A stretch of 64,000 nucleotides of DNA from an uncultured Bacteroidales bacterium. GTDB taxonomy: Bacteria; Bacteroidota; Bacteroidia; Bacteroidales; Bacteroidaceae. How positions within the stretch are numbered: position 1 is the first letter of the stretch; each line of letters starts with the position of its first letter. The notes under the pieces are model-generated. The model had not been told where the DNA came from. It made no database searches and saw only the letters and a list, made by a program, of their open reading frames with translations. Positions 5,508-31,341 of the stretch are shown one piece after another. Location: the NCBI GenBank assembly GCA_902787575.1, contig CADAGX010000004.1, positions 62,001 to 126,000 of the forward strand, written 5' to 3'. Made by a program: the position numbers and the translations under genes.

Positions 5508-5581
5508 CCACGTTTGACGATGAAAAAACTACACGTAGTTTTGTTCGCAACCACACGTCGAAAAATAATTTCCACACGTCG
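5508..5581 (+). repeat. Phased CCACACGTCG-like array (4 units, 21-22 bp)
   Basis: Cores begin at 5508 (CCACGTTTGA), 5529 (CTACACGTAG), 5551 (CCACACGTCG) and 5572 (CCACACGTCG). The steps are 21, 22 and 21 bp. The two last cores are identical, and the sequence between cores is A/T-rich. The same core and period recur in other intergenic regions of this window. Confidence 0.6.
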
Positions 5582-5583
5582 TA

Positions 5584-5617
5584 TTGCATGAAATGCAAGG
5601 CAGTAACGTGCCTTGCA
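5584..5617 (+). promoter_or_regulatory. Three-arm alternative hairpin
   Basis: Arm A TTGCAT (5584-5589) can pair with arm B ATGCAA (5593-5598). Arm B extended, TGCAAGGCA (5594-5602), pairs perfectly with arm C TGCCTTGCA (5609-5617) across a 6-nt loop. The two pairings exclude each other, as in attenuator-like switches. There is no adjoining U-run, so a role as terminator is doubtful. Confidence 0.45.
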
Positions 5618-5706
5618 CATAATCAGTTTTTTAGTCCGGCGAGGATTATTTTTTAAGATTTAACATCTTTTCGCTATCAAATGCACGTAATCTCAAATAA
5701 AATCAC

Positions 5707-5714
5707 TATATTTG
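5707..5714 (+). promoter_or_regulatory. -7 box TATATTTG for aminopeptidase P
   Basis: TATATTTG matches the Bacteroidota -7 consensus. It lies 52 nt before the ATG at 5767 and probably drives the aminopeptidase P-C1 peptidase pair. No clear -33 TTTG was seen. Confidence 0.5.
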
Positions 5715-5766
5715 CAGCTGATTTTTGCACGTCGGAAACATAGACGTTGCAAGCTATTTTTACAGG

Positions 5767-7167
5767 ATGTTATTCGATAAGCAAACATACGAAGCACGGC
5801 GGGCCACCCTGCGACAGCAGGTGGGTTCGGGTCTGATATTGCTGCCGGGAAATTCCGACACGCCCGTAAACTACCCGTCGAACGTCTATAAGTTCCGTCA
5901 GGACTCCACGTTTCTCTACTACTTCGGCCTGCAGCGCGAAGATTTGGCTGCAGTAATCGATGCCGACAGCGGCGAGGAATGGATTTTCGGCGATGATATC
6001 GACATAGACGACATCGTGTGGTTCGGACAAGTGGAGAGCGTGGCCGAAATGGCTGCAGCCTGCGGCGTGGCAAAGAGCGCGCCGATGGGCCAGCTCTCGG
6101 CCCTCGTAGCTAAGGCTCTCGCCTGCAAGAGGCAGATACACTTCCTGCCGCCATACCGCCACGACTGGATGATTCGGCTCGCCGACCTGACGGGCATCCG
6201 CCCCGAAGAGCAGAAAGCCCGCGCATCGAAGGCACTCATCATGGCTGTCATAGGTCAGCGGGCCAAGAAGTCGGCGGCAGAGGTGGAGGAAATAGAGCGC
6301 GCATGCGCCATCGGATACGACATGCACACCACTGCCATGCGTCTCTGCCGGCCGGGCGTCACGGAGCAGCACATCGGCGGCGTGCTGAGCGGAATCGCCA
6401 GCAGCCGAGGCTGCATCGTTTCGTTCCCGCCAATCGTGACGATGCATGGAGAAATCATGCACGGGAACCCCAGCCCATGTCCGCTGGAGGAAGGACGGCT
6501 GATGCTGTGCGACGCAGGCGCAGAAACAAACGAGAACTACTGCAGCGACCACACACGCACGTCGCCCATCGGCGGTCGTTTCAGCCAGCGCCAACGCGAG
6601 ATATACAGCATCGTCGAGGAGTGTCACGACTACGTGCTGCAGTTGGCTCGCCCCGGCGTGAAGTGGTGGGACGTTCACTTCGCCGTTTGCCGCATGATGA
6701 CCGAGCGACTGAAAGAACTCGGCCTGATGCGCGGCAATACGGACGACGCACTCGAGGCTGGCGCACACGCCATGTTCATGCCCCACGGCCTGGGGCACAT
6801 GATGGGCATGGACGTTCACGACATGGAAGGCCTCGGACAGACACTTGTGGGCTTCGACGACGAAGTTCGCCCACGTCTCGACCAGTTTGGCACGTGCAGT
6901 TTACGTTTCGGCCGGCGGTTGCAGGAAGGATTCGTGCTAAGCGACGAACCCGGTATCTACTTCATTCCCGCACTAATCGACGCGTGGAAAGCAGAGGGAC
7001 GATGCGCCGAATTCCTCAATTTCACCCTGTTGGAAAAATACAAAGACTTCGGCGGAATCCGCATCGAAGACGACATACTCGTCACGGCAGACGGCTGCCG
7101 CTTCCTTGGCACGCAGCAAATCCCATATCACGCAGGTGACGTAGAGAATTTCATGGCAAACAACTAA
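5767..7167 (+). CDS. pepP: Xaa-Pro aminopeptidase (M24B, aminopeptidase P)
   Basis: A cytosolic metallopeptidase that removes an N-terminal residue preceding proline. The 466-residue protein has an N-terminal AMP_N domain (about 1-135) followed by the pita-bread M24 fold. All five dimetal ligands are recognisable: Asp in CDAGAETN, Asp in CSDHTRT, His in PHGLGHMMGMDVHD, Glu in SDEPGIYF and Glu in IRIEDDILV. The in-frame ATG at 5767 (MLFDKQTYEARR) was preferred to an upstream one at 5725 because family members start with this sequence. The C1 peptidase starts 12 bp downstream, so the two are probably co-transcribed for peptide use. Confidence 0.93.
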   Translation: MLFDKQTYEARRATLRQQVGSGLILLPGNSDTPVNYPSNVYKFRQDSTFLYYFGLQREDLAAVIDADSGEEWIFGDDIDIDDIVWFGQVESVAEMAAACGVAKSAPMGQLSALVAKALACKRQIHFLPPYRHDWMIRLADLTGIRPEEQKARASKALIMAVIGQRAKKSAAEVEEIERACAIGYDMHTTAMRLCRPGVTEQHIGGVLSGIASSRGCIVSFPPIVTMHGEIMHGNPSPCPLEEGRLMLCDAGAETNENYCSDHTRTSPIGGRFSQRQREIYSIVEECHDYVLQLARPGVKWWDVHFAVCRMMTERLKELGLMRGNTDDALEAGAHAMFMPHGLGHMMGMDVHDMEGLGQTLVGFDDEVRPRLDQFGTCSLRFGRRLQEGFVLSDEPGIYFIPALIDAWKAEGRCAEFLNFTLLEKYKDFGGIRIEDDILVTADGCRFLGTQQIPYHAGDVENFMANN

Positions 7168-7179
7168 AATAAATATACA

Positions 7180-30323: not shown

Positions 30324-30370
30324 CAGACTTATTTTGTGACGGCCAAATTTTTTGGCGTCTTTTTTTCACA

Positions 30371-31174
30371 TTATGTCAATTCGAAGACTTCTGAAGGCAC
30401 TTTGCGCTTCAGAATATCCACTTTGAAATCGGTTCCGCAGGCTATGCCATAGCCACGTAGCACGGTCTCCACGGTTTTTCGTGCCAGTTCTGGATGATTA
30501 TTCTCCTCGCTGAGATGACAGAGCCACGCGTGGCGCAGGGCTGGCGTGGCATGCTCGGCCAGCAGACGCGCGGATTCCTTGTTGCTCAGATGGCCGCGGC
30601 CACTGCGGATACGTTCCTTCAAATAGGCGGGATATGGACCCATCATCAGCATGTCCTCGTCGTGGTTCGCCTCGAGCACCAAGTAATTGGCCTGCCCCAC
30701 TTTCTCCTCCAGTTCCGGCGTGATATGACCGACGTCTGTAATCAGACAAAACGTCACTCCGTCGTGCACTACGCGATAACCCACACAGTCGCTACTGTCG
30801 TGCGGCACCTCGAAAGGTGTGATGCAGAGGTCGCCAATTTGCACGCTCTTGCCCTTCTCTACGTATCGCACGTGCTCGGCTGTCAGTTTCGGGCTTACAC
30901 AATAGTTGCGGTTAATGCCGCCATGCACAGGCTCCGTAGCGTAGATAAGCCTGTGATACTCGTTAGCCAGGTTGCCGACGGACTTAATATGGTCGGCATG
31001 GTCGTGAGTGATGAAAACGGCACTCAGCGACTCGAGACTCAGCCCGAAAGTCTTGAAGTGGCGCTTCAGCGTTCTCACGCCGATGCCGGCATCTATCAGA
31101 ATCGCCGTACTCTCTGACGCCAGATAGTACGAGTTTCCGCTGCTGCCTGACCCAAGTGAAATGAATTTCATCAT
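30371..31174 (-). CDS. MBL-fold hydrolase, YycJ/WalJ-like
   Basis: A 267-residue metallo-beta-lactamase-fold protein. The start [18 protein letters not shown] and the metal motif THDHADH (HxHxDH), then His in FEVPHDSS, Asp in LITDVGHI and the distal GHLSNKES and [12 protein letters not shown] fit the YycJ group, proposed to act as a nucleic-acid-related exonuclease or hydrolase. The ATG at 31174 was preferred to TTG at 31186; a second ATG follows directly at 31171. A promoter box lies at 31195-31202, and a divergent gene starts on the other strand. Confidence 0.88.
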
Positions 31175-31194
31175 GTGTCTGTTCAAATTTTATG

Positions 31195-31202
31195 CAAAGT
31201 TA
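31195..31202 (-). promoter_or_regulatory. -7 box TAACTTTG for the YycJ-like gene
   Basis: Minus-strand TAACTTTG ends 20 nt before the ATG at 31174. Confidence 0.55.
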
Positions 31203-31255
31203 CATCTTTCTCCCCTATTTGGCAAATCTTTCGCGTACGAATGAAAAAAATTTCC

Positions 31256-31263
31256 TAACTTTG
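31256..31263 (+). promoter_or_regulatory. -7 box TAACTTTG for the GH2 gene
   Basis: TAACTTTG ends 84 nt before the ATG at 31348. The leader in between consists mostly of three phased 21-bp units. Confidence 0.55.
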
Positions 31264-31280
31264 CAAACGAAGGCAACAAA

Positions 31281-31341
31281 GCGCGGGAATTTTATTTTCG
31301 CACGCCGGAATTTATTTTTTAAACGACGGGATAACATTTTC
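31281..31341 (+). repeat. Three 21-bp phased units in the GH2 leader
   Basis: GCGCGGGAATTTTATTTTC, GCACGCCGGAATTTATTTTT and ACGACGGGATAACATTTTC recur with a 21-bp step; GGGAAT, CGGAAT and CGGGAT start at 31285, 31306 and 31327. The GC core is a weaker relative of CCACRCGTCG. The unit CGCACGCGGGAATTTTCC before the first paaK is very close to the second one here. Confidence 0.45.

Follow-up and report, generated by a model that had tools for sequence, protein, structure and literature searches.

What are the GC-rich cores that recur every 21 or 22 bp between the genes of a 64,000-nucleotide stretch from an uncultured Bacteroidales bacterium (Bacteroidaceae; GenBank assembly GCA_902787575.1, contig CADAGX010000004.1, positions 62,001 to 126,000), here called the window? 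A sequence-only reading of this DNA had described an oriented 10-bp core, CCACRCGTCG, and proposed that a protein binds its copies cooperatively. We find instead a 14-bp imperfect palindrome, TGCSACRYGTSGCA, of which this core is one reading. The palindromes form arrays between transcription units, with a dominant period and a free spacer, and relatives share this architecture but differ in sequence; in one species pair, the core evolves more slowly than its surroundings. From these comparisons, the arrays are probably cooperative rows of putative dimer-binding sites at transcription-unit boundaries, whose specificity would have been replaced between species.

The repeated unit and its excess over chance

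We defined the unit from 34 aligned intergenic sites and then scanned with the strand-symmetric form C[CGT]AC-RY-GT[ACG]G. The halves of the palindrome are mostly TGCGAC, TGCCAC or AACTAC with a two-base centre between them, and these three half-sites are interchangeable, as in TGCGACGCGTCGCA, AACTACACGTAGTT and TGCCACACGTCGCA. As a description of the unit, the oriented 10-bp core was wrong, and cores had appeared in both orientations because the palindrome has mixed half-sites. Each 14-bp unit is followed by a free 8-bp spacer, with the next unit at 22 bp and at times at 21. The eight-base spacers are diverse (78 of 108 distinct) and show a weak TGARCGAA-like preference. Two-base centres were AC in 74 units, GT in 66, GC in 42 and AT in a single one, where 27.5 were expected; this and the covariation tests below count units of one array separately, and such units may be duplicates. 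Since an AT centre joins two weak halves, its near-absence indicates that one poor half is tolerated and two are not, which is the behaviour of a dimer site.

Spacing is nearly invariant. Intergenic sites no more than 120 bp apart (464 kb) are separated solely by 21, 22, 43, 44, 65, 66, 87, 88 or 109 bp. Among 118 consecutive steps within a gap, 102 are 22 bp, 11 are 21 bp, one is 23 bp and four take other values. The resulting 113 neighbour pairs at 21 or 22 bp far exceed random placement of sites in the same gaps, which over 5000 trials averaged 2.4 such pairs and never gave more than 9. Site-bearing gaps hold one unit in 16 cases, two in 7, three in 5, four in 20, five in 9 and six in one. 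Gaps are stretches of at least 40 bp between genes called by a simple in-house caller (about 90% coding).

The recurrence that had been read from the window is thus upheld and proves more extensive than first described; also upheld are the intergenic excess and the difference from shuffled DNA. A scan of 856 kb of this genome placed 176 sites in gaps, which make up 65.6 kb of it, against 81 in coding DNA; the reversed sequence yields 2 intergenic and 65 coding sites. The whole genome contains 233 exact copies of CCACRCGTCG (37 of the reversed pattern) and 300 of GCSACRYGTSGC (9 in the control). A scan for repeat lags that presupposes no motif found lag 22 in 14 places of a first sample and 14 of a second, and in none after dinucleotide shuffling (one shuffle per sample); apart from 22, 44 and 66, no lag occurred more than twice. 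By eye, the present palindrome is visible in 27 of the 28 lag-22 arrays of this genome.

Architecture and sequence in relatives

The relatives of this bacterium keep the architecture and replace the sequence (G000 denotes the genome of the source contig; G001 and so on are the other genomes compared). GCSACRYGTSGC is at background elsewhere, with at most 15 copies per genome in 60 genomes of the same genus and at most 5 in 40 order-level genomes. The lag scan of 10 relatives (365 kb) nevertheless found 24 lag-22 places in 8 of them, with differing cores that include AAGACGCGCGTCTT, AACTCCCCTAGGGGAGTT, AAWGSTTAASCWTT, AASTTCTCTGCAGAASTT, TCGATGCGCATCGA and AAGATAGTTATCTT; beyond 44 and 66, their next lags were 45 (4 places) and 72 (3), both multiples of a triplet. 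Copy counts reveal species-specific alphabets. AAWGSTTAASCWTT occurs 312 times in G012, 298 in G024 and 51 in G020, and 0-2 times in the remaining 58 of 61; GCASCRYGSTGC occurs 709 times in G025 (reversed control there 162) and at most 44 times elsewhere; AAGACGYRCGTCTT occurs 10 times in G017, 7 in G001, 4 in G028 and 0-1 times elsewhere. Lag-22 arrays are intergenic in 30 of 30 cases in G024, 27 of 27 in G012 and 12 of 13 in G017, and they are dense, with 29 assigned to 99 gaps in G024 and 27 to 103 in G012, or about one per 3-4 gaps. The expectation of arrays in relatives therefore holds for the 22-bp architecture across the genus and fails for the sequence, which is species-specific.

Outside the genus, 20 order-level genomes gave one weak 22-bp array in G083 and two 23-bp arrays in G078, in a sample of 261 kb that included some very short stretches plus 180 kb from five of the 20. 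The G078 arrays (L130:8230 and 9646; another family of the order) consist of CTCACAAKYTTGTCARTTTTTAY and are possibly the same phenomenon. A lag scan of 50 kb of E. coli found no array. A search of the collection for contigs with three units of this palindrome returned four contigs, from three metagenome-assembled genomes (MAGs) that bear the labels Bacteroidaceae or Prevotella; by title, two of them come from deer. Their AspS proteins are 75-89% identical to that of the source genome, inside the genus range, which suggests a Prevotella-like genus. One of these genomes, G102 (Prevotella Red_deer_2_mag_11), has 191 sites against 5 in the control, and those listed mostly do not lie at 22 bp. Its loci L092 and L095 have the look of GTAG-type repetitive extragenic palindromes (REPs), and a separate locus, L062:5625, is an array of 5 x 22 bp. 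The GTAGGGACGCGACRYGTCGCGTCC elements of G102 (L092, L095, L062) resemble a REP family whose core is similar to the present palindrome; among the matches listed, they recur at 49-53 bp at C13:1851-2209, and the array at L062:5625 ends in one. Several species of the genus also carry a second class of tandem repeat, 7-bp runs of the TTCAATA, CAACGGA, CAACTGT and GGATTAG types (L096:16181, L106:13570-13700, L109:16650, L115:10595).

Two close relatives, G012 and G024, allowed us to compare core and spacer evolution. In 220 kb of each, 17 plus-strand blocks cover 190 kb colinearly at 93% identity. Of the 30 arrays in G024, 22 have an orthologous G012 segment and 19 were aligned; three, with length differences above 60 bp, were left out. 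For the divergence test, the phase was set from one near-consensus anchor unit of the GGTTAACC type, itself left out of the counts, the other units were taken without selection, and 12 ungapped arrays were used, seven being dropped for gaps or want of such an anchor. Changes hit 23 of 421 core positions (5.5%), 43 of 292 spacer positions and 212 of 1440 flank positions (14.7% for spacer and flank together), so that the core is slower than the spacer (p=4e-5) and the flank (p=1e-7). The commonest core changes turn one frequent half-site into another. Swaps of A-T or C-G make up 15 of the 23 core changes and 48 of the 212 flank changes (p=5e-5); contacts in the minor groove are insensitive to such swaps.

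Length also changes in whole steps. Alignment gaps touching the 19 arrays measure 49, 44 and 22 bp, whereas seven gaps in flanks measure 1-2 bp. One array has five units in G024 and three in G012, with spacers that are alike within a species and unlike between the two, which indicates that whole units are also duplicated or lost. Elsewhere, G012 and G024 have different sequence alphabets in a gap whose flanks match. In G024, near-identical 4-unit arrays lie 1.2 kb apart (C31:164218 and 165385; L187), apparently through a segmental duplication that included the array.

Sites in the window and their position relative to genes

We scanned the window with a weight matrix trained on 173 sites from outside it, with a cut-off of 6 bits, and retained the following sites.

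5527-5540, 5549-5562, 5570-5583; no strand assigned; array of three units, steps 22 and 21 bp; 11.7, 12.1 and 13.3 bits
8400..8413; no strand assigned; single unit TTCGACGCGTGGGT in a codirectional gap; 9.3 bits
13868..13924; no strand assigned; array of three units at 13868, 13890 and 13911, steps 22 and 21 bp; 15.1, 7.4 and 8.1 bits
21279..21292; no strand assigned; single consensus unit TGCCACACGTCGCA in a codirectional gap; 20.6 bits
28212..28291; no strand assigned; array of four units at 28212, 28234, 28256 and 28278; 21.2, 20.6, 17.7 and 18.3 bits
42840..42853; no strand assigned; weak single unit of doubtful membership; 8.5 bits

Five of the six intergenic places proposed by the sequence-only reading thus contain units, and the sixth, 31281-31341, has none. 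The arrays claimed at 8402-8432 and 21260-21312 shrink to one unit each; a single core placed at 42842 corresponds to the weak unit at 42840, and one placed near 53393 lacks a unit even at 2 bits, as does 31281-31341. The first array occupies a divergent gap and is flanked by TAnnTTTG boxes of both directions, and two of the three units at 13868..13924 are degenerate. The array at 28212..28291 has steps of exactly 22 bp (Tandem Repeats Finder, period 22) and lies in a convergent gap between an Exo_endo_phos gene and aspS, the latter named by its tRNA-synt_2 and GAD domains. We regard a further intergenic match at 63852 (7.3 bits, AT centre) as chance. The same cut-off also gives 23 matches within coding DNA (57.6 kb) and 20 on the reversed sequence, so lone weak matches carry little meaning. 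A perfect 14-bp tandem duplication, CCACGCGGCGGTGA, lies at 36711-36738 inside a stretch called coding.

In this genome, the arrays tend to occupy the strip between the end of one gene and the promoter-like box of the next. Codirectional gaps contain 23 arrays of at least two units, of which 19 start no more than 117 bp past a stop codon; seven lie behind a terminator-like hairpin and one ahead of one. Of these 23 arrays, 18 have a TAnnTTTG box downstream and 2 have one upstream; with the opposite strand as control, the numbers are 3 and 1. Other species, counted without a strand control, show the same box downstream versus upstream in 8 vs 0 of 14, 8 vs 1 of 16 and 3 vs 0 of 4 arrays. Six of 10 divergent gaps have the array between boxes of both directions. 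Convergent gaps are enriched in sites (13 of 45, against 32 of 243 codirectional gaps; p=0.013), and 13 of 64 divergent gaps have them. The earlier placement between genes therefore stands, but leaders are not the typical position: arrays lie behind stop codons or terminators and ahead of a promoter-like box.

A common function of the neighbouring genes was sought and rejected. Among 40 genes with an array on their 5' side, the top families were EcoRI_methylase and F5_F8_type_C with three each, and none of the 25 families listed, out of 90 matched, occurred in more than three of the 40. The gap behind aspS has a lag-22 array in 11 of 30 species, source genome included, mostly with differing sequences. 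This frequency is near the background of G024 and G012, and we therefore make no claim that the locus is conserved among distant species.

Proposed cooperative binding, its rivals and known systems

In the reading that we favour, the 14-bp imperfect palindrome would be an operator-like site for a putative protein dimer, and steps of 22 bp, about two helical turns, would set the dimers on one face of the DNA with neighbours in contact. Four to five dimers would make a cooperative block in the strip between the end of one transcription unit and the promoter of the next. Such a block may act as a boundary against read-through or the spread of supercoils, or as a nucleoid anchor. The putative protein family would keep its neighbour contact, and with it the 22 bp. 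Its DNA specificity would be replaced from one species to the next, and the alphabet would change along with it genome-wide. As for cooperative operators, the sites are palindromic, dimer-like and helically phased, and they are conserved against the spacer in the G012/G024 pair. The cooperative binding proposed earlier still best explains the slow cores, the fixed spacing, the lack of covariation and the avoidance of doubly weak sites. More tentatively, and with rather less confidence than in the binding itself, we suggest that the arrays are genus-wide boundary elements in which 14 + 8 = 22 bp is set by the oligomer contacts of the putative protein and the alphabet is replaced wholesale between species, a bacterial counterpart of satellites that co-evolve rapidly with the proteins binding them.

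Several points weigh against this reading. Neither the cognate DNA-binding protein nor a candidate was found. The distance from array to promoter box varies so widely that there is no fixed regulatory geometry, and array orientation leans with the direction of transcription (20 vs 7, p=0.019), which a symmetric dimer site does not predict. The flanking genes have no common theme, the 10 neighbours in the window being mixed. The conservation test covers one species pair and mainly one alphabet. A period of 22 bp is two turns of relaxed B-DNA plus 1 bp, and it is not universal: G017 has three 23-bp arrays beside 13 at 22 bp (220 kb), and periods of 21 bp occur at two loci (G014, G017) and of 25 bp at one (G047). 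Finally, selfish DNA would gather in the same safe strips too.

That last point belongs to the main rival, which we consider unlikely: the arrays would be selfish or neutral repeats, REP-like or minisatellites, that spread into intergenic sites, grow by 22-bp duplications and are confined to the strips between transcription units by the harm that insertions do elsewhere. The location bias fits tolerance, and this rival also suits dispersed, species-specific families with hundreds of copies and the gain or loss of whole units with homogenised spacers (5 in G024, 3 in G012). A query with one G024 array also returned 49 matches in G012, two of them through orthologous flanks and most others through the array itself. 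Whole-unit copying does not, however, account for a core that evolves at about one third the rate of its spacers and flanks, nor does a selfish repeat explain why unrelated sequences have a 22-bp period in common. Nor do the arrays have common ends: 84 flanks of 100 bp from 42 arrays yielded 11 similar pairs (E<=0.01), confined to a minority of arrays, with six of the 11 among three arrays that border a GTGTAGGTT-rich repeat. The sole REP-associated tyrosine transposase (RAYT) of this genome is flanked by a different REP, GTAGGGAATTTGCTTGTCAAATTCCG, and the array-bearing G001, G002, G012, G016 and G024 (72-92% complete) have no Y1_Tnp match, on which grounds we rejected a RAYT/REP system as the driver. 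Spread by phages, viruses or plasmids was likewise rejected, as no copies of the arrays were found in them at the sensitivities used. Structure in RNA or single strands, whether transcript hairpins (terminators or stabilisers of mRNA 3' ends) or cruciforms, would suit palindromic units behind stop codons, and some arrays of relatives do end in a near-perfect palindrome plus a T run. Yet half-site variation ignores base pairing, which makes both hairpins and cruciforms very improbable: complementary half-site pairs number 29 of 71 in G024 against 34.5 expected (and 48 against 50.9) and 29 of 68 in G012 against 31.4 (and 43 against 47), and mismatched X/Z units are in excess in this genome (90 against 66 expected; units within an array are not independent). 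In its 23 codirectional arrays, the last unit is no more palindromic (4.09 of 7 pairs, against 4.69 for inner and 5.22 for first units) and T runs show no asymmetry (2.43 T in the following 8 nt, 2.22 A in the preceding 8 nt), so that intrinsic terminators were rejected for this genome. The sole Rfam match at threshold in the window is a tRNA, and hairpins have no need of a 22-bp phase.

A substrate for a site-specific recombinase, with 7-bp arms and lox-like 8-bp free spacers, would account for a spacer of fixed length between inverted arms and for copy number that changes unit by unit. The blocks of G012 and G024 are nevertheless in the same order save one short block, with none on the minus strand across the two 220-kb stretches, and we give this explanation as little weight as RNA structure. 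Least probable, by a small step, are uptake or recognition signals with species dialects, or targets of restriction-modification (R-M). Species-specific alphabets would agree with either, and in this genome an array lies upstream of all three operons that pair an EcoRI-type methyltransferase with a GmrSD_N-HNH endonuclease. On the strength of the genus survey, we rejected this operon as the driver: nine of 30 such operons have a lag-22 array within 800 bp upstream, two of the nine in this genome, which is not above the 11 of 30 behind aspS, and PF13651, present in 25 of 61 genomes, is absent from the array-bearing G001, G012 and G024 (72-86% complete). To our knowledge, uptake signals are not expected as phased arrays confined to gaps.

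Some arrays adjoin other elements. A second repeat rich in GTGTAGGTT and AACCTACAC borders those at G000:C1:50119, C1:74260 and C2:1875. The RAYT-type transposase gene lies at L038:9866-10471 (G000:C1:149866-150471) among several copies of GTAGGGAATTTGCTTGTCAAATTCCG, a REP family distinct from the 22-bp arrays that also adjoins the array at C1:146592 and one at C3:94694. The three methyltransferase-endonuclease operons are paralogous two-gene units (G000:C1:147137-149326, C2:172892-175052, C3:49352-51590) that encode an EcoRI-type adenine methyltransferase and the GmrSD_N-HNH endonuclease, called type II methyltransferase (MTase) and restriction endonuclease (REase) by PADLOC.

Among known systems, iterons and helically phased operators such as ArgR boxes have sites about two turns apart that one protein binds cooperatively, at one or a few loci and with the protein known, whereas the present arrays comprise hundreds of sites. 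The DNA uptake sequences of Neisseriaceae reportedly form dialects in which a short genome-wide motif is replaced at species level, as here; we know of no phased arrays or confinement to gaps among them. Searches of open-licence PubMed Central (PMC) papers turned up no account of palindrome arrays with this 22-bp period, subscription papers being outside the search. In the passages available, the nearest described element is BrickBuilt of Porphyromonas gingivalis, followed by tagged REPs and TAACTGA repeats, and none matches. BrickBuilt is a 23-nt minisatellite or miniature inverted-repeat transposable element (MITE) at 19 loci, with 1 to 22.8 units, no spacers, and leader and tail segments with small inverted-repeat ends, as far as its description was seen (PMC4596501). 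It shares with the present arrays the order Bacteroidales, intergenic position, limitation to a species, a tandem length close to 22 and a unit with conserved and non-conserved parts (PMC4596501, in the parts consulted); the present arrays differ in their palindromic core and free spacer, the alphabet replaced between species, the lack of common flanks and their hundreds of units, often 4-5 per array. A 23-bp step occurs once in 118 here. GTAG/CGTC-tagged REPs with RAYTs are likewise dispersed, many-copy palindromes in species-dependent families, and the passages seen mention no 22-bp phase (PMC3733652). Unlike them, the present sites lack a RAYT link and conserved pairing, and no GTAG or CGTC tag is conserved outside the palindrome in the 34 aligned sites. 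The TAACTGA direct repeats of Beggiatoaceae, Cyanobacteria and a few Bacteroidetes resemble the arrays as intergenic repeats in sets (2-6) at many loci; in the passages seen, they are a fixed heptamer, many near start codons, neither palindromic nor at 22 bp (PMC4679880).

If the binding model is true, these arrays would amount to a genome-wide layer of chromosome or transcription boundaries whose code is rewritten between species. They would provide a natural series of paired specificities for following how one protein evolves jointly with its hundreds of sites, and studies of Bacteroidales from gut and rumen would gain sequence-specific anchor points.

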